DNA of 64,000 nucleotides from Epilithonimonas sp. JDS (lineage in GTDB: Bacteria > Bacteroidota > Bacteroidia > Flavobacteriales > Weeksellaceae): positions 124,001 through 188,000 of the forward strand of contig NZ_JAJSAX010000005.1 of NCBI RefSeq assembly GCF_021261315.1, in the 5' to 3' direction. The notes beneath the pieces were generated by a model. That model saw only the letters and a list, made by a program, of their open reading frames with translations, ran no database searches and had not been told where the DNA came from. The position numbers were made by a program, and so were the translations under genes. Below are positions 3,815 to 34,326 of this stretch, one piece after another. Every line of letters starts with the position of its first letter. Within the stretch, counting starts at the first letter, position 1.

Positions 3815-3874
3815 ATTCGGTAGCAAAAATTCATCATTCATCAATTATCAATTATCATTCATCATTTATAACTC

Positions 3875-5239: not shown

Positions 5240-5247
5240 TATTTTAA

Positions 5248-5355
5248 TTTGGGCAGCTTTATCCGCCTTCCACTCTCAATCTTTTTACCTTTGCTTTTTC
5301 CAGCCACAAAAAAGGATTTCCGTTCAAGTCGGGCTGCAGCTTCGCAAAGTTGAAG
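5248..5355 (-). repeat. Dispersed intergenic repeat, copy C (inverted, degenerate)
   Basis: Reverse-oriented, shorter member of the repeat family also seen at 11418-11557 and 23911-24038. Read on the minus strand it shares the flank TTGCGAAGC, the segment CCCGACTTGAACGGA, and the distal segment GGATAAAGCTGCCC. The central hairpin is degenerate: the TCATTGCGA arms present in the other copies are missing and only A-rich/T-rich arms remain. It fills most of the gap between the kinase gene and the efflux operon. Confidence 0.6.
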
Positions 5356-5467
5356 ATTCCCAATTGATCCAACTTTTGTCAATCAATTCGAATCTGCAAA
5401 ATTTGTTAAAGAATATTTTATCAAAGTCTTTCATCTATCCGTCTATAATCTATTATCTCAACCACAA

Positions 5468-5523
5468 TTAAGTTTTTTTTAAGTCTCATTTAAGTCCGTT
5501 TTAATCGAGGTAAGGCATTTTTG
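5468..5523 (+). promoter_or_regulatory. Efflux operon promoter with four 11-bp-phased TTAAGT repeats
   Basis: TTAAGT begins at 5468, 5479 and 5490, and the variant TTAATC at 5501, an exact 11-bp period. Ten bases later CATTTTTG (5516-5523) matches the -7 box TAnnTTTG with one mismatch. The repeats occupy the place of a -33 element, as in PhoB/OmpR-type activated promoters. The response regulator is encoded 2 kb upstream. A TTG at 5521 is inside the -7 box and is therefore unlikely to be a start codon. Confidence 0.7.
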
Positions 5524-7874: not shown

Positions 7875-7887
7875 GAGATTTCAAAGA

Positions 7888-7963
7888 AACCCGCAGGGTT
7901 AAATATCAGTAGCCGTAGGTGAAACCTATGGTTAATACGCATCGCTACAGATTAAATCTGTGG
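7888..7963. repeat. Cluster of three small REP-like hairpins
   Basis: Three short imperfect or perfect palindromes lie in the 142-bp gap inside the efflux operon: AACCC-GCA-GGGTT around 7888-7901, CCGTAGGT-GAA-ACCTATGG at 7913-7931 and CTACAGAT-TAA-ATCTGTGG at 7945-7963. The middle one has the same GAA loop and a related stem to the hairpins that flank the IS200-like transposase at 14.8-15.3 kb. They may be REP-like elements; they could also affect mRNA stability between adaptor and pump. Confidence 0.6.
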
Positions 7964-8016
7964 TCAATATTAATATGAATAATCATAAATAAAAATTGTG
8001 ATTCAAAATATAAAAT

Positions 8017-11417: not shown

Positions 11418-11557
11418 TTTCAACCTGGCGAAGCGCACCCCGGGCTGAGTGGAGCTCTTTTTCTGTCATTGCGATGGTAGAAATTTTCAACAAACAGCTG
11501 CACGTCGATCGCAATGGCAGAAAAAAGCGGGAACGGAGCACGGATAAGGGGCCCAAA
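11418..11557 (+). repeat. Dispersed intergenic repeat, copy A
   Basis: Structured repeat of about 140 bp shared with 23911-24038 and, inverted, with 5248-5355. Conserved blocks in order: TTTCAAC..GGCGAAGCGCA, CCCGGGCTGAGTGGAGCTC, TTTTTCTGTCATTGCGAT, a variable loop of about 34 nt, TCGCAATGGCAGAAAAAAGC, then GGGAACGGAGCACGGATAAG and GCCCAAAT. The inner arms pair as a 16-bp stem with one wobble. The stem is conserved between copies A and B while the loop is not. A promoter box for the next gene starts 6 bp after its end. Confidence 0.7.
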
Positions 11558-11562
11558 TTATT

Positions 11563-11570
11563 TATCTTTG
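11563..11570 (+). promoter_or_regulatory. -7 box TATCTTTG of the deformylase-like gene
   Basis: Exact match to the Bacteroidota consensus TAnnTTTG, 15 bp before the ATG at 11586. No convincing -33 element is visible upstream because that stretch is the end of repeat copy A. Confidence 0.55.
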
Positions 11571-13492: not shown

Positions 13493-13578
13493 TTTTTGTT
13501 GTATTAAAGTATTACTGTAAAATGTATTCACGATTCTAAGGATTGTTAATACATTCAAACGTTCTACATTTTACAGAT
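13493..13578. repeat. Inverted-repeat arms without gene (empty four-helix cassette site)
   Basis: The trpB-trpA gap consists almost entirely of two arms: CTGTAAAATGTA (13515-13526) pairs perfectly with TACATTTTACAG (13565-13576). The left side (13494-13538) matches 31509-31553, and the right side (from GTTAATACATT at 13545) matches 31916 onward; those are the two flanks of a four-helix-bundle gene in the beta-oxidation operon. By eye about 39 of 45 left-arm bases agree. Here the arms are joined by a short loop with no ORF. The homology is observed; the name 'empty site' is inference. Confidence 0.65.
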
Positions 13579-14757: not shown

Positions 14758-14776
14758 ATTTTTTTTATTTTTTTTA

Positions 14777-15356
14777 GCCACAAAGTGGCGATTTAATCAA
14801 GGATAGGATGAAATCCTATCAAATTAGATTGAAAGTCAATCCCATAGATATTTTTCATCATATTCGATTTTATATTTTTGATAATAACTCACGAGTTCTT
14901 TTTTGAAATCAAAGTCTTTGTGATGCTCTCTCTGATTTTTAATATAATTTTTCACAACAAATATGTTGTTCGGACTAACTGAAAATGCGCCATAACCATC
15001 TTGCCAAAAGAAAGATTCATATTTCTTTCCTTTACTTTTTATCCATTTTGAAGAATGTGCTTTTATTTCCTGAACTAATTTCATCAATGCAATTTTCCTC
15101 GAGAGCAGGCAAAGAATATGAATGTGATTGTCGGTTCCTCCAATTTGGATTGCTGTGCTTTCAAATTGTTTACAAATCGAACCAATGTAAGCAAATAGTT
15201 CATTTTCAATAGCTTCATCTATAAAATCATTTCGATAATTCGTACTGAAAATGATGTGAATGTAATTTTTTACGAGAGATTGTGGCATAATTTCAATTTG
15301 TGTTTTAAATTTCATAGGATTTCATCCTATTCTATATTATGTCGTCCCTTTGGGAC
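14777..15356. mobile_element. IS200/IS605-like element with flanking REP-type hairpins
   Basis: A single tnpA-type gene sits between short palindromes. On the left are GCCAC-AAA-GTGGC (14777-14789), GATAGGAT-GAA-ATCCTATC (14802-14820) and GATTGA-AAG-TCAATC (14827-14841). On the right are ATAGGAT-TTC-ATCCTAT (15314-15330) and GTCCC-TTT-GGGAC (15344-15356). The 14802 and 15314 hairpins are the same sequence in opposite orientation. There are no terminal inverted repeats of the DDE type and no obvious target duplication, as expected for a Y1 HUH element or a REP-associated transposase. Exact ends are a guess. Confidence 0.65.
14836..15288 (-). CDS. tnpA: IS200/IS605-family Y1 transposase (TnpA)
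   Basis: Single-strand DNA transposase of the HUH class, 150 residues from the start at 15288 (MPQSLVKNYIHIIFSTNYR), the usual family beginning. The metal-binding motif is NHIHIL (His55, His57) and the nucleophile is Tyr115 in VVKNYIKNQREHH. A start at 15315 would begin inside the flanking hairpin. The gene lies within the trp operon, between trpF and trpB, in the same orientation. All catalytic residues are present, so it may be active; it could mobilise itself as IS200 or act on REP-like hairpins in trans. Confidence 0.85.
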   Translation of the reverse strand: MPQSLVKNYIHIIFSTNYRNDFIDEAIENELFAYIGSICKQFESTAIQIGGTDNHIHILCLLSRKIALMKLVQEIKAHSSKWIKSKGKKYESFFWQDGYGAFSVSPNNIFVVKNYIKNQREHHKDFDFKKELVSYYQKYKIEYDEKYLWD

Positions 15357-16023
15357 TGTTTAATAAATTTAGGAAATCTTTTATTTTATCCAAATCTTTA
15401 TTTCCTGGTTCAACCTCGAATTTTGAATTAATATCTAGCGCAATTGGTTGGTGGTTGACAGCTGACAGTTGATGGATATTTTCTAGTGAAATTCCGCCAC
15501 TTAAAATGTAAGGAATTGGAATTATGATTTCATTTAAAATATTCCAATCGAAGATTTTTCCTGTTCCGCCGAAAGCTTTCGAGTCTGTATCAAATAGGAG
15601 ATAGTTGATGGTAGCTGGTTGTTCGTTGATGTTTTTTTGTAATTCCTCAGGCGATTGATTTCCGATTCTGATTACTTTTACCATTTTAATTTCGGGATTT
15701 AGTTTTTTTCTTAATTCTGAAATAAAATCATCATTTTCGTCGCCGTGAAGTTGGATGAAGTTTAAGTTTGCTTTTTCTGAAATTTCAATAATTCTTTCAA
15801 CATTTTCGTTTACAAAAACACCAACTTTTCCTGAATGTTCAATTTCTGAAATCTGTTCTAAAGTCAAATGATTCAAAACAAATCTTGGCGATTTATTATA
15901 AAAGATAAAGCCTAAGAAATTAATTTTTAAATCAATCAATTCCTGAATCTGGTCGAGTTTGGTCAATCCGCAGACTTTGAGTTGCAATTGGTTGTTGGCT
16001 TCTTGCTTTTGGCTTTTCATCAT
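15337..16023 (-). CDS. trpF: Phosphoribosylanthranilate isomerase
   Basis: Amadori isomerase converting phosphoribosylanthranilate to CdRP, third step after chorismate. It has 228 residues, slightly long. The catalytic Cys is in LKVCGLTK and the Asp in YLLFDTDSKAFGGTGK; the phosphate loop is LSGGISLENI. The last six residues (SPKGTT) are encoded by the REP-like hairpin at 15344-15356, and the first residues (MMKSQKQEANNQ) by a low-complexity stretch rich in TTGGC, so both ends have been remodelled by repeats. The start at 16023 or 16020 cannot be decided. Confidence 0.93.
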   Translation of the reverse strand: MMKSQKQEANNQLQLKVCGLTKLDQIQELIDLKINFLGFIFYNKSPRFVLNHLTLEQISEIEHSGKVGVFVNENVERIIEISEKANLNFIQLHGDENDDFISELRKKLNPEIKMVKVIRIGNQSPEELQKNINEQPATINYLLFDTDSKAFGGTGKIFDWNILNEIIIPIPYILSGGISLENIHQLSAVNHQPIALDINSKFEVEPGNKDLDKIKDFLNLLNSPKGTT

Positions 16024-19255: not shown

Positions 19256-19262
19256 AATTTTT

Positions 19263-19320
19263 AGTCCGAAGTCAGAGGTCTGAAGTCGGAAGTTTTTGCG
19301 TTATATTTTTTCTTCGGACT
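19263..19320. repeat. Inverted repeat AGTCCGAAG / CTTCGGACT in the trpG-trpD gap
   Basis: AGTCCGAAG (19263-19271) pairs with CTTCGGACT (19312-19320). The left arm continues as a purine-rich series of GAAGTC-like units (19266-19292). The right arm is inside the last codons of trpG, whose tail GGTKSEEKI it encodes. The style is like the low-complexity arms around the four-helix gene at 29.9 kb, but the sequences are not the same. It may be a remnant of a similar element or a simple intergenic repeat. Confidence 0.5.
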
Positions 19321-23910: not shown

Positions 23911-24038
23911 GAATCTGCAACCCGGCCTGAACGGAGCTCTTTTTTGTCATTGCGATTGTTGACTGGTTATACTGAATGTCTAGCGCCGTTCGCAATGGCA
24001 AAAAAAGCGGGAGTGGAGGACGGATAAGTTGCCCAAAA
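23911..24038 (+). repeat. Dispersed intergenic repeat, copy B
   Basis: Best-preserved copy of the family also at 11418-11557 and 5248-5355. Order: CTGCAACCCGGCCTGAACGG, AGCTCTTTTTTGTCATTGCG, a variable loop, TTCGCAATGGCAAAAAAAGC, GGGAGTGGAGGACGGATAAG, TTGCCCAAAA. TTTTTTGTCATTGCGA pairs with TCGCAATGGCAAAAAA over 16 bp with one G-T. It lies in the 479-bp gap between the thioesterase gene and the ArsC-like gene. That gap also contains a GC-rich GCCCCGGCCCTAAAGGGAGC element near 23785 and a TTAACG-AA-CGTTAA palindrome at 24055-24068. Confidence 0.7.
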
Positions 24039-24161
24039 TATGAAACTTAAATCCTTAACGAACGTTAAAGTTCTGGATGTAAATGGCAGAGGATGAGACC
24101 TTGCGTCGGGGCGTAATATAAGATATCTAAACGACATAGCCAAGATGTGGAAAATAAAACG

Positions 24162-28099: not shown

Positions 28100-29887
28100 C
28101 TAGTAAGAACCTTTCGCAATAAAATGAGATGCAATTTTCTCAGTCAAAGCAATTGGATTTGGCGTGTTCACGTATTTTGTGAAACGTCTTAGTCCGGCCA
28201 ACATCATTCTTTGCTCGTCGCCTTCGGAGAAAGAGACGATGCCTTCTTTGGCGTTGGTGGCGATGATGTCAACGGCTTTGTAAAGATTCAGTCTTGCCAT
28301 TGATGCTTCTACAGAACCGGTGTCGAAATGTTTCTCCGCTCTCAGGATGGCAGATTCTGCCATATAGATTTGGTTCAGGATTTCGGAAGCGTTCAGGAGA
28401 AGATGCTGTTGTTTCTCGATGTCCATCATATATTTTTGAAGGGCAGAACCGGAAACCATCAGGAAAACTTTCTTCAGATTTTTGATAACTTCTTTTTCCT
28501 CAGACATATATTCTGAATAATCCGGAATATCGAAAGACGGGATTCCCATCAATTCTTTCCCTACATTTTTAGCAGGCGTCAAAAGGTCGATTTTCCCTTG
28601 CATTGTGCGTTTGATGAGCATTCCCACGGCAAGAAGTCTGTTGATTTCGTTCGTTCCTTCGTAGATTCTGGAAATCCTTGAATCTCTCCAGGCAGATTCC
28701 ATTGGTGTATCTTCTGAGAAGCCCATTCCACCGAAGATTTGAATCCCTTCATCCGCTGAATGTTGCGCCAAATCCGAAACGAAAACTTTCAAGATAGAAC
28801 ATTCTACTGCGAATTCCTCTACGCCTTTCAATTCCGCTTCTTCGTGGTTCATTCCGCCGGCAACCAATTCCTCGATTTTGTTTTCGACATCTTTTGCACC
28901 ACGGTAAGAACCAGCCTCACTCACAAAAGCGCCAGTCGCCATCTCCGCCAACTTCTTGCGAATTGCCCCGAAAGTGTTGATAGAAACGCCAAACTGCTTT
29001 CTCTCCGTAGAATAAGTCAATGAATGGTTCAGGATTCTTCTTTGCGCATCCAGACAAGCCGCCGCTAATTTGATTCGGCCAACGTTCAAGGCATTAAGAG
29101 CGATTTTGAAACCGTTGTTTCTTTCACCCAAAAGATTCTCAACAGGAATTTTCATATCATTGAAGAAAACCTGACGCGTAGATGACGCACGGATTCCCAA
29201 TTTGTGTTCTTCCTCTCCGAAAGTCAGGCTCTCAGGATTTTCCAATTCTGAACGGTTGATAACGAAGCCGGTGATGTTTTTGTCATCATCAATCTTGGCA
29301 AACAATGTGAAAGTGTCTGCAAAACCAGCATTCGAAATCCACATTTTTTGTCCGTTGATGATGTAATGTTTTCCGTCTTCGGAAAGTTTGGCTCTTGTTT
29401 TTCCGCTGTTTGCATCGGAACCTGCGTCCGGCTCGGTCAAGCAGTAAGCACCAAATTTAGTTCCCGCCGCTAGGTCCGGAAGGTATTTGTTTTTCAGATA
29501 TTCGCTTCCGTAAAGTAGGATTGGAAGTGTTCCAATTCCAGTGTGTGCACCATAAGCTGTTGCTAATGAGCCAGTGGTTCCGGAGATGTAATCGCAAGCC
29601 AGCATTGTGGTCACGAATCCCATTCCAAGTCCGCCGTAAGCTTCAGGAACAGCGATTCCCAAGAATCCCATTTCTCCGATTTTACGCATCACTTCTTCCG
29701 TGTAGGCGTAATCTTTTTTCTCGAAGCGTTCTTTGTTCGGAACCACTTCTTTATCTATGAATTCTTTCGCAGAATCGCGTAGCATTTTTTGTTCTTCGGA
29801 AAGTTCTTCGATGCTGAAGATTTCCTGAGCAGTGATGTCCTTTACCAGGAATTCGCCACCGTTTAATGTTTTGGTTTCAGTACTCAT
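28100..29887 (-). CDS. Acyl-CoA dehydrogenase (VLCAD-like)
   Basis: FAD enzyme of the first beta-oxidation step. It has 595 residues: the dehydrogenase core (about 25-410) plus a C-terminal extension of about 180 residues, as in very-long-chain enzymes. Typical motifs are CLTEPDAGSDANSG, ISNAGFADTFTLFAKI, LNVGRIKLAAACLDAQRR and the catalytic-Glu region SRIYEGTNEINRLL. Last gene of the operon marR, fadJ-like, thiolase, acyl-CoA dehydrogenase. A four-helix-bundle cassette separates it from the thiolase gene. Confidence 0.93.
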   Translation of the reverse strand: MSTETKTLNGGEFLVKDITAQEIFSIEELSEEQKMLRDSAKEFIDKEVVPNKERFEKKDYAYTEEVMRKIGEMGFLGIAVPEAYGGLGMGFVTTMLACDYISGTTGSLATAYGAHTGIGTLPILLYGSEYLKNKYLPDLAAGTKFGAYCLTEPDAGSDANSGKTRAKLSEDGKHYIINGQKMWISNAGFADTFTLFAKIDDDKNITGFVINRSELENPESLTFGEEEHKLGIRASSTRQVFFNDMKIPVENLLGERNNGFKIALNALNVGRIKLAAACLDAQRRILNHSLTYSTERKQFGVSINTFGAIRKKLAEMATGAFVSEAGSYRGAKDVENKIEELVAGGMNHEEAELKGVEEFAVECSILKVFVSDLAQHSADEGIQIFGGMGFSEDTPMESAWRDSRISRIYEGTNEINRLLAVGMLIKRTMQGKIDLLTPAKNVGKELMGIPSFDIPDYSEYMSEEKEVIKNLKKVFLMVSGSALQKYMMDIEKQQHLLLNASEILNQIYMAESAILRAEKHFDTGSVEASMARLNLYKAVDIIATNAKEGIVSFSEGDEQRMMLAGLRRFTKYVNTPNPIALTEKIASHFIAKGSY

Positions 29888-29907
29888 TTATATTATTTTT
29901 TTTGATT

Positions 29908-30319
29908 AAAGAATAAAGAGAAAAGATTAAAGACTTACCACTTCAATGTTTTTTGAAAGCCTGAAATCATTCTCTGTAATTCGGTGATTTTATTTTCTAT
30001 TAATTTAAATTTCGATTGTTCAATATAATTCCTCCTTGAGGAAATAATTACTTGAGTTTGTAATTCATAAAGAGAACCTAGACTGATTTCTAAAAATCGG
30101 TTAAAGTCTTTTTGTGAAGTTCTGCTTGAGCCTTCTGCAATATTAGAAGCAACAGAAACTGTACATCTTCTAATTTGAGATTTCAAACCGAATTCTTCAT
30201 TTTTAGGAAAACTTTCTGTAATTGCATAAATTTCATCTGCTAATTCGATGGATAATTTCCAAATATTCAGATTCTTAAAATTATGCTTCATTATTATAAG
30301 TCTTTTCTCTTTATTCTTT
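29908..30319. mobile_element. Inverted-repeat-bounded four-helix-bundle cassette 1
   Basis: A 19-bp stretch beginning AAAGAATAAAGAG at 29908-29926 is the exact reverse complement of 30301-30319. Between them lies one four-helix-bundle ORF. AAAGACTT (29929-29936) can alternatively pair with AAGTCTTT (30298-30305). In the operon mRNA the arms would pair and place the ORF in a large loop, bringing the thiolase stop (30331) next to the acyl-CoA dehydrogenase start (29887). This is the design of 23S rRNA intervening sequences. Mobility is inferred, not shown. Confidence 0.6.
29935..30291 (-). CDS. Four-helix-bundle protein, S23/IVP family
   Basis: Small all-helical protein of 118 residues related to the proteins encoded in 23S rRNA intervening sequences and to Avd of diversity-generating retroelements. 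Family motifs: NLNIWKLSIELADEIY, FPKNEEFGLKSQIRR, SVASNIAEGSSR and FNRFLEISLGSLYELQTQ. Basic surface residues suggest nucleic-acid contact. Molecular function is not established. It is flanked by perfect 19-bp inverted repeats and lies between two beta-oxidation genes. A paralogue with about one third identity is at 31552-31914. Confidence 0.9.
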   Translation of the reverse strand: MKHNFKNLNIWKLSIELADEIYAITESFPKNEEFGLKSQIRRCTVSVASNIAEGSSRTSQKDFNRFLEISLGSLYELQTQVIISSRRNYIEQSKFKLIENKITELQRMISGFQKTLKW

Positions 30320-30330
30320 TCTCTCCTTGT

Positions 30331-31506
30331 CTAAAGAAGTTCAAAAACACTCGCCGCACCTTGACCAGTTCCTACGCACATTGTGACAACACCATATTTG
30401 CTGTTTCTGCGTTTCATTTCGTCAAGAAGTTGAACGGTCAATTTAGTTCCTGTACAACCTAGTGGATGTCCAAGTGCGATTGCGCCTCCGTTTACGTTGA
30501 CGATATCTGGATTGATGTTCAGTTCTCTTAAGATTGCAACAGACTGAGAAGCAAACGCTTCATTCAACTCAAACAAATCGATGTCAGATTGTTTAAGACC
30601 TGCTTGTTCCAATGCTTTCGGAATGGCGAACATCGGCCCGATTCCCATAATTCTTGGCGGAACGCCGACGGTCGAATAGGAGAGAAGTCTCGCAACTGGC
30701 GTTAGATTTAATTCTTTGACCATTCTTTCGGACATTACCATTGTAAAAGCAGCGCCGTCAGAAGTTTGAGAAGAGTTCCCAGCCGTCACAGAACCATTCG
30801 CTGCGAAAACTGGACGAAGTTTCGCCAAAGCTTCCACCGATGTGTCAGCTCTCGGACCTTCATCTTTTTTGAAGGCGTATTCTTTGGTTTGGATTTTTTC
30901 CTTTTCGTCAAGGAAATTATATGCAACATCAATTGGAACAATCTGGTTTTCAAATTTTCCTTCCTTGATAGCTTTCATTGCTTTCTGGTGCGAGTTATAA
31001 GCAAATAGGTCCTGCTCCTCACGACTCACTTTGAATTCGTTGGCAACAGCTTCCGCCGTCAATCCCATTCCCCAATAATAATCGGGATGTTTCTTGGCCA
31101 AATCCGTGTCTGGAATTGGTTTGTAACCGCCCATCGGGATGTACGACATACTTTCTGCACCACCAGCGATGATGCATTCTGCCATTCCCGCTTTGATTTT
31201 AGCCGCTGCAATCGCAATCGATTCTGAACCTGAGGCGCAATATCTGTTCACTGTAAGACCTGGAACTTTGTCAGTGTCTAGTCCCATTAATGAAATCAGT
31301 CTCGCGACGTTAAGGCCTTGTTCTGCTTCCGGCATTGCACAACCGACAATCAAATCGTCGATGCGAGCTGGGTCAAGATTTGGAACATCTTTCATCAGAT
31401 GTTGTATCACAGTTGCCGCCATATCATCTGGTCGGGTAAAACGTAAAGAACCTTTCGGCGCTTTACCAACTGCTGTTCTGTATCCTGTTACTATATATGC
31501 TTCCAT
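30331..31506 (-). CDS. Acetyl-CoA C-acyltransferase (3-ketoacyl-CoA thiolase)
   Basis: Last step of beta-oxidation, thiolytic cleavage of 3-ketoacyl-CoA. It has 391 residues. The acyl-accepting Cys is in VNRYCASGSESIAIA (about residue 89), the catalytic His in NVNGGAIALGHPLGCTGTK, and the second Cys in TMCVGTGQGAASVFEL. It is the partner of the multifunctional 3-hydroxyacyl-CoA dehydrogenase encoded upstream and is flanked on both sides by four-helix-bundle cassettes. Confidence 0.94.
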   Translation of the reverse strand: MEAYIVTGYRTAVGKAPKGSLRFTRPDDMAATVIQHLMKDVPNLDPARIDDLIVGCAMPEAEQGLNVARLISLMGLDTDKVPGLTVNRYCASGSESIAIAAAKIKAGMAECIIAGGAESMSYIPMGGYKPIPDTDLAKKHPDYYWGMGLTAEAVANEFKVSREEQDLFAYNSHQKAMKAIKEGKFENQIVPIDVAYNFLDEKEKIQTKEYAFKKDEGPRADTSVEALAKLRPVFAANGSVTAGNSSQTSDGAAFTMVMSERMVKELNLTPVARLLSYSTVGVPPRIMGIGPMFAIPKALEQAGLKQSDIDLFELNEAFASQSVAILRELNINPDIVNVNGGAIALGHPLGCTGTKLTVQLLDEMKRRNSKYGVVTMCVGTGQGAASVFELL

Positions 31507-31508
31507 TG

Positions 31509-31946
31509 TTTTTGTTGTATTTACGTATTAATGTAAAATGTATTTATGATTTTAAAATGTTTGAGTATTAAATTTCTGCTTCAATTTTACTAACATATTT
31601 TGGATGTGTTTGATTTCAGAGTAGATGTTATTAAAATCATCATTTTTAAAGTATCCCAAATCATTAGTAATTAATATTTGAGTTTCAAATTCGAATGATG
31701 AGCCTAAAGCTATATTCAGAAAATGCGAAAATTGAGCATTTGAATCACGACCAGCGCCTTCAGCAATGTTAGACGGAATTGAAATTAAACTTCTTCTTGC
31801 TTGAGAAGTTAATCCGAACAATTCATCTTTTGGAAAATTGTTAGAAGCCAAGTAAAATACTTTACAAAGTTTCATCGATTTTGTCCAAACTTCTAAATCT
31901 CTAAAATTGTGCATCGTTAATACATTAATACTTTTTACATTTTACA
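31509..31946. mobile_element. Inverted-repeat-bounded four-helix-bundle cassette 2
   Basis: Flanks of the ORF at 31552-31914 contain two pairs of perfect 11-bp complements: GTATTAATGTA (31525-31535) with TACATTAATAC (31921-31931), and TGTAAAATGTA (31532-31542) with TACATTTTACA (31936-31946). The pairs cannot both form at once. Both flanks are matched, without the ORF, in the trpB-trpA gap at 13493-13578. The different arm sequence but same layout as cassette 1 suggests that the arms vary while the architecture is kept. Confidence 0.6.
31552..31914 (-). CDS. Four-helix-bundle protein, S23/IVP family (second copy)
   Basis: A 120-residue paralogue of the protein at 29935-30291, with the same order of motifs: DLEVWTKSMKLCKVFY, FPKDELFGLTSQARR, SIPSNIAEGAGRDS and FSHFLNIALGSSFEFETQ. 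The start (ATG at 31914) is just inside the right arm of the cassette. It lies between the 3-hydroxyacyl-CoA dehydrogenase and thiolase genes in the same direction. The last codons run into the left arm. Divergence between the two copies argues for two separate insertions rather than a recent local duplication. Confidence 0.9.
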   Translation of the reverse strand: MHNFRDLEVWTKSMKLCKVFYLASNNFPKDELFGLTSQARRSLISIPSNIAEGAGRDSNAQFSHFLNIALGSSFEFETQILITNDLGYFKNDDFNNIYSEIKHIQNMLVKLKQKFNTQTF

Positions 31947-31953
31947 AAAAAAT

Positions 31954-34326
31954 CTAATTTCTAAGAGGTTTTCCTGTCGTTAACATCGTCTGAATTCTCT
32001 CAAGCGTTTTTCTCTCGCCACAAAGTGAAAGGAATGCTTCTCTTTCCAAATCCAAAAGATATTGTTCGGAAACTTCTGTTGGTTCGGAGAGATTTCCGCC
32101 GGTCATTACGTAGCCTATTTTGTTAGCAATCAGTCTGTCGTGTTCTGAGGCGTAACCGCCGGCAACCATTTGGTCTGTTCCAACGTAGAACATTCCCATT
32201 GATTCTTTTCCAAGAACTTTTATTTTTTCTGGAACTGGTGGAGTGTAGCCTAATTCGTCCAAAACAATCGCCTGACGTTTTGCTTCCACAATTTGTCGGT
32301 CTTTGTTGACAACGATGATATCTTTGTCGGTCAAAATTCCCATTTGCTTGGCTTCGTGCGCAGAAGTTGCCACTTTTGCGGTTGCAATGTTCATAAAGTA
32401 ATTTCGAAGATGATTGGTTTTAACATCGTCTGGAAGTGCGCCTTTCAAAGCTCTTAAGGCAAACTCTTTCGTTCCGCCACCGCCTGGAATCAAACCAACG
32501 CCAACTTCTACAAGTCCGATATAAGTTTCCGCTGCTGCAACAATTTTATCCGAATGCATCGAGAATTCGCAACCGCCACCAAGCGTCATTCCGAACGGTG
32601 CCGCGATAACTGGAATTGAGGAATATCTCAATTTCATCGATGTTTGTTGGAATAAGTTAATGGCCATATTCAGTTCGTACCAATCTTGTTCAACTGCCAT
32701 CATCATTACCATCGCAAGGTTTGCGCCGACTGAGAAATTATCAGATTGGTTTCCAACAACCAAACCTCTGTAATCTTTCTCAGCAATGTCGATGGATTTA
32801 TTAAGTCCTTCCAAAACGCCTCCGCCAAGAGAATTCATTTTTGAACGGAATTCGAAGTTCAGTATTCCGTCGCCAAGGTCAATTAACGCAGATTCGGAGT
32901 TGGACCAGATTGTTTTTTCTTTTCTGATATTATCAAGAATAATGAATGCATCAAGACCTGGAATTGGCTCATAAGTTTTCGTGTTTTGATTGTAGAATAA
33001 CTGCTTTCCGTTTTCCAATTTATAGAAAGATTCGTTTCCGGAAGACAGCATTTCCTTAACCCAATCAGCAACTTTATAGCCTTCGCTTTCCACCAAATCA
33101 ATTCCTTTTTGAATTCCTAAGAAATCCCAGTTTTCAAATGGTCCATATTTCCACGCGTAACCGGTTTTCATTGCATCATCGATAGAGTAGAACACATCGG
33201 TGATTTCCGGAACTCGCTGAGAAACATAAGCAAAAAGGGAAGCGTAATGTTTTCTAATCAATTCGCCAGCCTTGGTTTGGTCTTGCAACAAAATTGGCAA
33301 ACGATTTTTCAGACTTCCTGCTTCTTTAGCCGTTTTAACGATTGGAAGTTTTGGCTGTTTCGTCGGTTCGTAACCAAGCGTTTCATAATTGAGAACGAAA
33401 CGGTTGACATTTCCACCAGCATCTTTTTCTTTATAATAGAATCCTTTTTTAGCTTTATCGCCGAGGAATTTATTTTCAATCAAATGATTTAAAGTCTTGG
33501 AATCTTTCAAAGCCTGAACCATTTCGTCGTCTTTCAAATTAGCTTGAAGGCCTTTCGTCACGTTGAAAGCCGTGTCTAATCCTACCAAATCTCCCAATTT
33601 GAAAGTTCCGGTTTTTGGACGATTCAATAAATCACCTGTCAAGGAATCAGCTTCCTCAATGGTCAAACCGATTTCCTCGGTCAATTCCATAATTTTCGCC
33701 ATCGAATAAACACCGATTCTGTTTCCGATAAATCCTGGCGTATCTTTACAAAGAACCGTAGTTTTTCCAAGGAATTTTTCGCCGTAAGACATAAAGAAAT
33801 CCACAACAGATTTATCAGTTTTCGGACCTGGAATCACTTCGAATAATTTCAAATATCTTGGCGGATTGAAAAAGTGCGTTCCACAAAAATGCTTCTGAAA
33901 ATCTTCTGACCTTCCTTCTGACATCAGATGAATCGGAATTCCTGATGTGTTGGAAGTTATCAAAGTTCCTGGTTTACGAAGTTTGTCCACTTTCTCGAAC
34001 ATCGATTGTTTGATGTCCAATCTCTCGACAATCACCTCAATCACCCAATCCGAATTTTTGATTTTCTCCAAATCATCTTCGAAGTTTCCAACCGTAATTC
34101 TGGAAGCAAACGATTTGTCGTAGATTGGCGAAGGATTGCTTTTCAAAGCGGTGTCAAGATGACCTTGAGCCACGCTGTTTCTCGTTTTCTTGTCGGCATT
34201 TTCTGAGTCTTTCGCAGGCATATCCAACATCAATACCTGAATCCCGTTTCCAGCCAAGTGACAGGCAATTCCGGAACCCATCACGCCGGAGCCGAGGACT
34301 GTAACGTGTTTTATTTTTCTGTTCAT
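31954..34326 (-). CDS. Bifunctional 3-hydroxyacyl-CoA dehydrogenase / enoyl-CoA hydratase
   Basis: Multifunctional beta-oxidation enzyme of 790 residues. The order is dehydrogenase first: NAD-binding VTVLGSGVMGSGIACHLAG at residues 8-26, C-terminal dehydrogenase lobe with CKDTPGFIGNRIG and GLDTAFNV. The hydratase-like domain follows (about 480-700) with the oxyanion motif FGMTLGGGCEFSMHSD and GLIPGGGGTKEF. Order is therefore the reverse of E. coli FadB. A hydratase Glu is present in VEVGVGLIPGGGG. It follows marR by 14 bp and precedes the thiolase. Confidence 0.93.
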   Translation of the reverse strand: MNRKIKHVTVLGSGVMGSGIACHLAGNGIQVLMLDMPAKDSENADKKTRNSVAQGHLDTALKSNPSPIYDKSFASRITVGNFEDDLEKIKNSDWVIEVIVERLDIKQSMFEKVDKLRKPGTLITSNTSGIPIHLMSEGRSEDFQKHFCGTHFFNPPRYLKLFEVIPGPKTDKSVVDFFMSYGEKFLGKTTVLCKDTPGFIGNRIGVYSMAKIMELTEEIGLTIEEADSLTGDLLNRPKTGTFKLGDLVGLDTAFNVTKGLQANLKDDEMVQALKDSKTLNHLIENKFLGDKAKKGFYYKEKDAGGNVNRFVLNYETLGYEPTKQPKLPIVKTAKEAGSLKNRLPILLQDQTKAGELIRKHYASLFAYVSQRVPEITDVFYSIDDAMKTGYAWKYGPFENWDFLGIQKGIDLVESEGYKVADWVKEMLSSGNESFYKLENGKQLFYNQNTKTYEPIPGLDAFIILDNIRKEKTIWSNSESALIDLGDGILNFEFRSKMNSLGGGVLEGLNKSIDIAEKDYRGLVVGNQSDNFSVGANLAMVMMMAVEQDWYELNMAINLFQQTSMKLRYSSIPVIAAPFGMTLGGGCEFSMHSDKIVAAAETYIGLVEVGVGLIPGGGGTKEFALRALKGALPDDVKTNHLRNYFMNIATAKVATSAHEAKQMGILTDKDIIVVNKDRQIVEAKRQAIVLDELGYTPPVPEKIKVLGKESMGMFYVGTDQMVAGGYASEHDRLIANKIGYVMTGGNLSEPTEVSEQYLLDLEREAFLSLCGERKTLERIQTMLTTGKPLRN

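Follow-up and report, generated by a model that had tools for sequence, protein, structure and literature searches.

In the 64,000-nucleotide stretch of Epilithonimonas sp. JDS analysed here (contig NZ_JAJSAX010000005.1, positions 124,001 to 188,000; the window), a gene of the S23 family of four-helix proteins lies between two operon genes, framed by two self-complementary arrays of short words. The association is strong and wider than the window: S23 genes sit in lineage-specific, self-complementary arrays of words seven to eight letters long. The words are periodic, the complementarity of the two arms is specific to each cassette and the words follow the lineage of the S23 gene; the same gaps are occupied by unrelated S23 lineages, and the protein is under purifying selection. 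The favoured reading, somewhat more probable than its negation, is that of a small intercistronic S23 element built like the intervening sequences of 23S rRNA. That both gene-bearing and scattered gene-less frames are found hints at a selfish element like these rRNA inserts.

What does the cassette look like? It spans 31507–31953, on the same minus strand as the fadB-like and thiolase genes on its two sides (NCBIfam names, the FadB match being under its cut-off). The initial annotation called its open reading frame (ORF; 31552–31914, minus strand) the second S23-like frame of the window, and the 120-residue product is indeed an S23/IVP protein, with matches to PF05635 (E = 6.8e-38; 129.6 bits against a curated cut-off of 33.8) and TIGR02436 (E = 3.8e-35; 120.4 bits, cut-off 24). 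In gene sense, the 5' arm (31915–31953, minus strand) reads GTAAAAT GTAAAAA GTATTAAT GTATTAAC, four words with p = 0.025 in the array scan; the complementary 3' arm (31507–31551, minus strand) has five words, a chain matched in length by none of 40 shuffles. Two 11-bp complements noticed in these flanks by the same annotation are real and can be read directly from the sequence: GTATTAATGTA (31525–31535) with TACATTAATAC (31921–31931), and TGTAAAATGTA (31532–31542) with TACATTTTACA (31936–31946). Because the order of the words is swapped between the arms, the two pairs cannot form together in a single nested stem. The RNA fold of this cassette alone (z = -1.93; 5 of 100 shuffles equally stable) is weaker than that of its neighbour across the thiolase gene (29888–30330). 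There, a second PF05635 gene with different arms (29935–30291, minus strand; 118 residues; E = 9.9e-40) fills the thiolase/acyl-CoA dehydrogenase gap, and its 5' arm of AAGAATAAAGAGAAAAGAC words (30292–30330, minus strand) makes a 19-bp stem with the 3' arm (29888–29934, minus strand) at a fold z of -3.36, neither arm being flagged by the array scan. Among Rfam-type RNA families, the sole match within 29800–32100 was SNORD64 (E = 0.97), taken as chance, and searches of Pfam and NCBIfam with E values up to 1 gave no transposase family for either S23 protein of the window (P0001, P0003).

How general is this layout? The source genome has 4.17 Mb and is one of the 23 genomes of the genus that were compared, all of which carry PF05635 matches (one to nine each); among 39 relatives, 30 match, 29 of them over the cut-off. 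The profile search returned 141 rows, 134 over the cut-off, and 112 copies (106 from the genus, 6 from other genera) were taken with their flanks; the rows left aside were the 7 under the cut-off and, of those above it, 6 from the genus and 16 from elsewhere. S23 copies are sense between co-directional genes in 106 of the 112 cases (100 of the 106 genus copies). Three-letter autocorrelation of 63 distinct 5' flanks rises at lags 7, 8 and 14 (z = 15.5, 8.1 and 10.6), and the same lags stand out in 57 distinct 3' flanks (15.5, 16.6 and 12.2); the remaining lags from 2 to 13 give z of at most 0.7, and lag 15 gives 1.4 (5') and 2.7 (3'). The flanks thus show the seven-nucleotide, intergenic period of heptanucleotide tandem repeats, with units that are degenerate and mixed with eight-nucleotide ones. 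GT and AG are the dinucleotides with the strongest lag-7 periodicity among 164 distinct 5' flanks, and the word chains hold three words in 38 flanks, four in 47 and five in 36, shuffles giving mostly two.

The two flanks of an S23 gene also pair with one another. In fixed windows the median z against shuffles is -2.33, with 61 of 112 copies under -2, compared with +0.21 and 5 of 57 for control genes (p = 3e-13); among these five controls, the thiolase gene with a cassette on either side accounts for three and the Y1 gene for one. Is this complementarity a general property of the words or one of the individual cassette? When each 5' arm was set against the 3' arms of other cassettes (145 of 212 cassettes left once near-duplicates were removed), its own partner fell in the top 5% in 72 of 145 cases, with 7.2 expected (p = 1.6e-53), and in 11 of 24 among copies titled outside Bacteroidota. 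Own arms outrank those of other cassettes, so the complementarity is cassette-specific although the words differ.

Do the words belong to the gap or to the gene? Arms of the same S23 lineage at different gaps are more alike (median cosine 0.271, n = 38) than those of different lineages that share a gap (0.157, n = 150), which do not exceed the background (0.155, n = 4532; p = 0.30). The difference has p = 1.7e-8, or 0.026 when aggregated by lineage and gap, in a test on 99 of the 112 copies where a few 'different gap' pairs are probably one gap (the MGLYHSAF/MGQYHSAF pairs). Words that follow the S23 lineage are the kind of gene and flanking-repeat co-evolution described for RAYT/REP systems. 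In a quick tree of few columns (132 proteins, 28 of them phylum loci; several thiolase loci from other genera escaped its THIO label), the gaps at trpG, acyl-CoA dehydrogenase and carB each require two or more S23 origins, the branches concerned having SH-aLRT values of at least 95. The ratio of nonsynonymous to synonymous substitution (dN/dS) has a median of 0.08, all 138 usable pairs lying under 0.5 and the medians of 13 lineages ranging from 0.05 to 0.17; of the 134 rows that pass the cut-off, 13 contain in-frame stops.

Is the S23 protein, then, a host regulator? The arms might be host intercistronic hairpins serving mRNA processing or stability, with S23 a domesticated, immobile RNA-binding protein of the TRAP type; TRAP serves as an analogy for a ring-shaped reader. 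The low dN/dS is in keeping with this, as are a 5' array directly next to the S23 start, where an autoregulatory site would be expected, arrays in the groES–groEL gap and the mraZ-murC-murG-ftsZ region, and the preference of arrays for co-directional gaps given below. It is nonetheless unlikely, as gap contents vary between species of the genus, even to full absence, distant S23 lineages occupy the same gap and some frames carry the in-frame stops just mentioned.

The variation was followed at five gaps, with word classes and contents judged by eye. The fadB–thiolase gap is empty in 4 of 23 genomes and holds S23 with GTAAAAT arms in six, S23 with GACAAGAG arms in four, another S23 in one and an ORF of no assigned class in one; the other seven have a Y1 transposase element (G004, G006, G009, G016, G020) or its arms alone (G013, G019). 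Three S23 types occupy the thiolase–acyl-CoA dehydrogenase gap in nine, five and five genomes, one of the last type (G012) with an in-frame stop, and four genomes have other content of about 1050 bp. At trpE–trpG the two genes overlap in 11 genomes, six have S23 and six something else. The trpB–trpA gap has GTAAAAT arms alone in 11 genomes, other arms-only classes or other contents in ten and an apparent ORF in two. In 22 genomes, groES–groEL is arms-only in 15 (G002, G004, G014 and G018 only partly alike), contracted in two, without any insert in two and occupied by S23 in three.

The trpB–trpA arms are those that the initial annotation had singled out as an ORF-less twin of the window's cassette, and the resemblance holds. 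Both arms lie side by side at 13493–13578 (minus strand): a repeat search of the window aligns 31509–31555 with 13493–13539 (47 nt, 87% identity) and 31913–31946 with 13542–13575 (34 nt, 85%), and a BLAST of the gap against its own genome finds the left arm at E = 8e-10 and the right at 3.9e-4. Across the genus the twin aligns in 11 rows at 90% identity, too little variation for a reading of covariation. Are these, as had been suggested, filled and empty, or master and minimal, forms of one mobile cassette? The part that stands is that arms and gene act as a unit: the words travel with the S23 lineage, and the fadB–thiolase and trpE–trpG gaps are empty or closed by overlap in some genomes. In G009 and G011 (L076, L084), moreover, the S23 gene of the thiolase–acyl-CoA dehydrogenase gap stands beside arms-only hairpins with the same words, a composite seen by eye. 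The exchange itself is not supported: none of the five gaps compared has one and the same cassette with its gene in some genomes and without it in others, and the S23 and gene-less alleles of groES–groEL carry different words. Two related ideas were rejected or weakened. Insertion of S23 into the loop of a resident hairpin would leave a GTAAAAT trace, and by eye the groES–groEL S23 alleles have none. Nor is the abundance of arms-only copies clearly driven by a matching gene: GTAAAAT arms-only sites, collapsed by hand, number 7, 9, 7, 2, 2 and 0 in the six genomes with a matching S23 and 0–6 in the 17 without, no clear difference. The tabulation of arm copies did not clearly tie the gene-less copies of this word class to their S23 gene. 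In the trpE–trpG gap of the same G009 and G011 (L440, L441), AAAACCATCAACC lies upstream of TrpG beside a different palindromic element; it corresponds to the 3'-arm words of S23 cassettes in that gap of other species, and is perhaps the scar of a lost cassette.

The presence of Y1 genes in the same type of gap, with inverted arms of their own, raises another question: are the cassettes elements of the REP/RAYT type, moved in trans by the Y1 transposases that their own genome encodes? The window has an example, an IS200-like Y1 transposase, not a four-helix protein, encoded at 14836–15315 in the trpF/trpB gap, within a region (14776–15357) whose inverted arms are long (50 nt, 80% identical). 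Of the 43 8-mers in each of its arms, only 11 and 12 are common to the S23 arms of the genus, as against 42 of 79 for the trpB–trpA twin, and 2 of 23 genomes (G005 and G017) have three and two S23 genes with no Y1 match. Y1 mobilisation is rejected or at least weakened by these two genomes, and is the least probable of the explanations weighed. A reverse transcriptase as mobiliser was rejected or weakened as well, RVT_1 being found in 9 of the 23 genomes and S23 in all of them; the window's own genome has one weak RVT_1 match, on another contig.

The association holds outside the genus. In the phylum, 157 of 198 genomes match S23, 153 over the cut-off, and 24 of 28 loci read are sense between co-directional genes. 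A further scan, of named genomes, took the 80 best loci matching one flavobacterial protein, 54 titled Bacteroidota and 26 others; phyla were read from record titles, and many records are metagenome-assembled genomes, some perhaps misassigned (L323 has a flavobacterial-like thiolase start adjoining). Among these loci, 51 of 54 titled Bacteroidota and 15 of 26 others are sense between co-directional genes, and 21 of 54 and 14 of 26 have a flank-pairing z under -2. An array is found in a flank of 83 of 108 further S23 genes (40 of 54, 19 of 26 and 24 of 28 phylum loci), compared with 15 of 457 control genes in S23-free genomes and 39 of 466 in S23-rich ones; at the same 108 genes, control periods gave 4 (lags 5/6) and 9 (lags 9/10). 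The initial annotation would have been wrong had the arm proved a ubiquitous repeat unlinked to four-helix genes, and these rates (83 of 108 against 3% and 8%) speak against that, with the limit that S23-less arrays are common in this genome. An exact double TTAGTGG occurred in two of six genomes searched, in the Ruminococcus-titled one only at S23 and in Thiohalocapsa at three places, one of them S23.

Cyanobacterial genomes have short tandemly repeated repetitive (STRR) sequences, and by eye five of six S23 copies read from cyanobacterial plasmids lie among heptamer-like words. On a Pseudanabaena plasmid (L363), cas6 and cas4 of a type I-D CRISPR-cas gene run enclose the S23 gene, which is preceded by 14 AAAAGCT units and followed by 12 AAAAGC(C/T) units, both arrays having the same orientation. 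On a Nostoc plasmid (L359) it is antisense between two ribonucleotide reductase genes, in AGTAGGG arrays.

How many arrays, on the other side, have no S23 gene? The own genome has five PF05635 genes, all between co-directional genes and flanked by short related words that differ per gene (words by eye). Over 464 kb, arrays occupy 31 of 205 gaps between co-directional genes, where the null gives 6. Convergent gaps have them in 4 of 37 cases (null 2) and divergent ones in 1 of 30 (null 1), together 5 of 67; of the 36 array-bearing gaps of all kinds, 3 adjoin S23 genes. The 464 kb are 20 stretches partly picked around known arms or S23 genes, so that 31 of 205 overstates the rate for the genome; a contiguous 200 kb free of S23 genes, with arrays in 9 of 87 co-directional gaps (null 2), gives a fairer figure. 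Gene-less arrays are thus the common form in this genome and outnumber S23 genes. GTAAAAT-type arms without a gene stand in the groES–groEL gap, next to mraZ, murC, murG and ftsZ, and in a 23S–5S spacer, where the copy (L008, 168–234) is arms-only between 5S (9–116) and 23S (301–1734) as placed by Rfam. The 7-mers that S23-less arrays share with S23 arms (fraction 0.79, against 0.73 for reversed or complemented arrays; 33 arrays, p = 1.7e-4) are weak evidence, because the measure is close to saturation.

Could such arrays be ordinary heptanucleotide simple sequence repeats (SSRs), produced by polymerase slippage in tolerant gaps where S23 merely lands or persists? Heptamers are the most abundant category of long SSR in most genomes of Mrazek 2007 (as cited in PMC4679880), and slippage would fit the frequent S23-less arrays just described. 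Random co-directional gaps point both ways: arrays occur in 2 of 155 in six S23-free genomes and 13 of 210 in six S23-rich ones, and 11 of these 13 come from two genomes (G070, 6 of 32; G228, 5 of 34), the other four giving 2 of 144, as against the 24 of 28 at phylum S23 genes. Slippage alone yields neither the pairing of an arm with its own partner nor words that follow the S23 lineage, and this explanation is quite unlikely, though less so than mobilisation by Y1.

The nearest described architecture to the operon cassettes is the intervening sequence of 23S rRNA. In Coxiella burnetii this insert has an S23 ORF, a 28-bp terminal stem and excision by RNase III, and GACAGAT heptamers directly before the S23p ORF vary in copy number between strains (PMC4990558). 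An S23 ORF between complementary ends, and heptamers before the ORF, are both found here. The cassettes differ in being flanked by fadB-like and thiolase genes rather than placed inside a 23S rRNA helix, in having their rRNA-linked copy as arms alone in the 23S–5S spacer, and in that a single genome has several of them, with more than one class of words. REP/BIME repeats (repetitive extragenic palindromes and bacterial interspersed mosaic elements) and their RAYT (REP-associated tyrosine transposase) genes offer a second likeness: a gene flanked by inverted repeats, co-evolution of the two and dispersed gene-less repeats (PMC2817692). Unlike RAYTs, S23 proteins have no Y1 or other transposase domain, and their repeats are word arrays where REPs are single palindromes. 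Miniature inverted-repeat transposable elements (MITEs) combine terminal inverted repeats with a target-site duplication; the cassettes show inverted arms, and by eye no duplication was recognised. The accessory protein of diversity-generating retroelements (Avd/bAvd) belongs to a related four-helix family, the Avd-related PF22296 reaching E = 2.4e-9 for P0003 and 0.03 for P0001, neither of which passes the curated threshold; the named neighbours of S23 are fatty-acid genes, in contrast to those systems, and RVT_1 is limited to the nine genomes above. Heptamer repeats have been on record for years: intergenic TAACTGA varies in copy number (PMC4679880) and GGGAATC forms 70 and 75 convergent inverted pairs in two Xanthomonas genomes (PMC4692102), so that seven-nucleotide units, intergenic position and variable copy number are shared; slippage, translational control and quadruplexes have been proposed as their causes or roles (PMC4679880, PMC4692102). 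The main texts of these two papers contain no match to S23, 'four helix' or 'intervening', and the parts available name no gene partner for either heptamer. Within the portion of the open-access literature covered, the Coxiella remark is the one link found between S23 and heptamer arrays.

How might the element work? In the favoured reading, the S23 ORF would lie in the loop of a stem made from two self-complementary arrays of 7–8-nt words, the stop of one operon gene being followed by array, ORF, complementary array and the next start, mostly in sense. By analogy with rRNA intervening sequences, the operon transcript would fold, the arms would pair and loop out the ORF, and the looped-out ORF may be cut by RNase III. 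The Xanthomonas S23 protein is a homopentamer (PMC4990558), and the solved homologues found, 2gsc and 2rld, have five chains each; a homopentameric ring might recognise the words, about one per subunit, in RNA or single-stranded DNA. A five-subunit ring reading about five words per arm is an attractive idea. S23 and its arms would spread as a unit, to which the S23-less arrays would stand as REPs stand to RAYT transposases, being relatives of a non-autonomous kind. A broader proposal, made tentatively and rather less probable than the element itself, is that S23 proteins are the trans-acting partners of widespread bacterial heptanucleotide repeats, a pentameric ring taking one 7–8-nt word per subunit in a transposase-free partnership of the RAYT/REP kind.

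Several observations weigh against this picture. The number of words per 5' flank shows no sharp five, its peak being shared by four (47 of 164) and five (36), and 51 of 112 S23 copies miss a pairing z under -2. The sense bias is not peculiar to S23: it is shared by 24 of 30 Y1 transposase genes examined (of 56 listed), and 35 of 57 window genes have both neighbours on their own strand; in the genus, two S23 copies run opposite to both neighbours, and of the six cyanobacterial copies read, three lie antisense in co-directional surroundings and one carries direct rather than inverted arrays. Most labelled gaps hold a single S23 lineage (16 label changes, minimum 12), which implies long residence, and the strong purifying selection suggests a benefit for the host no less than selfishness. 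The gene-less groES–groEL hairpin is of GTAAAAT type, compared with AGCTTTTAGC-type words in the three S23-bearing genomes. No target-site duplication was recognised by eye at the inverted arms in the five compared gaps, and no transposition, excision or binding was observed.

If the proposal were true, a single element family would show itself in three guises: as rRNA intervening sequences, as operon cassettes and as dispersed heptamer arrays. S23 proteins are widespread, as the 153 of 198 phylum genomes over the cut-off attest, and their function is given as not known, in spite of solved structures, in the part of PMC4990558 available. If S23 reads words, the puzzles of S23 function and of heptamers merge into one testable question, and each S23 protein brings its own candidate site, a clear substrate for binding.

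The window has further S23-less arrays. The array scan found seven ATTCATC/ATTATCA words at 3815–3874 (plus strand) and five ACTTCCG/ACTTCAG words at 19256–19300 (minus strand) in the trpG–trpD gap, with no partner arm seen at either. The gap at 5240–5520 (plus strand) holds a TCATCTATCCGTCTATAATC array, whose words are shared by an S23 clade of the thiolase–acyl-CoA dehydrogenase gap in G006 and G011. Elsewhere in the genome, the mraZ-rsmH-murC-murG-ftsZ region (L354 and L355; G000 C24, 40–80 kb) has gaps with eight word arrays in all, which belong to several classes. G015 has four matches resembling the GTAAAAT element of the 23S–5S spacer; they fall into two closely spaced pairs and may reflect rRNA copies. 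A direct repeat of 48 nt (81%) starting AAAAAAGCGGGA, at 11521–11568 and 24001–24048 of the window, is by eye unrelated to the arrays, and an intercistronic gap at 7875–8016 holds two strong REP-like hairpins in tandem.
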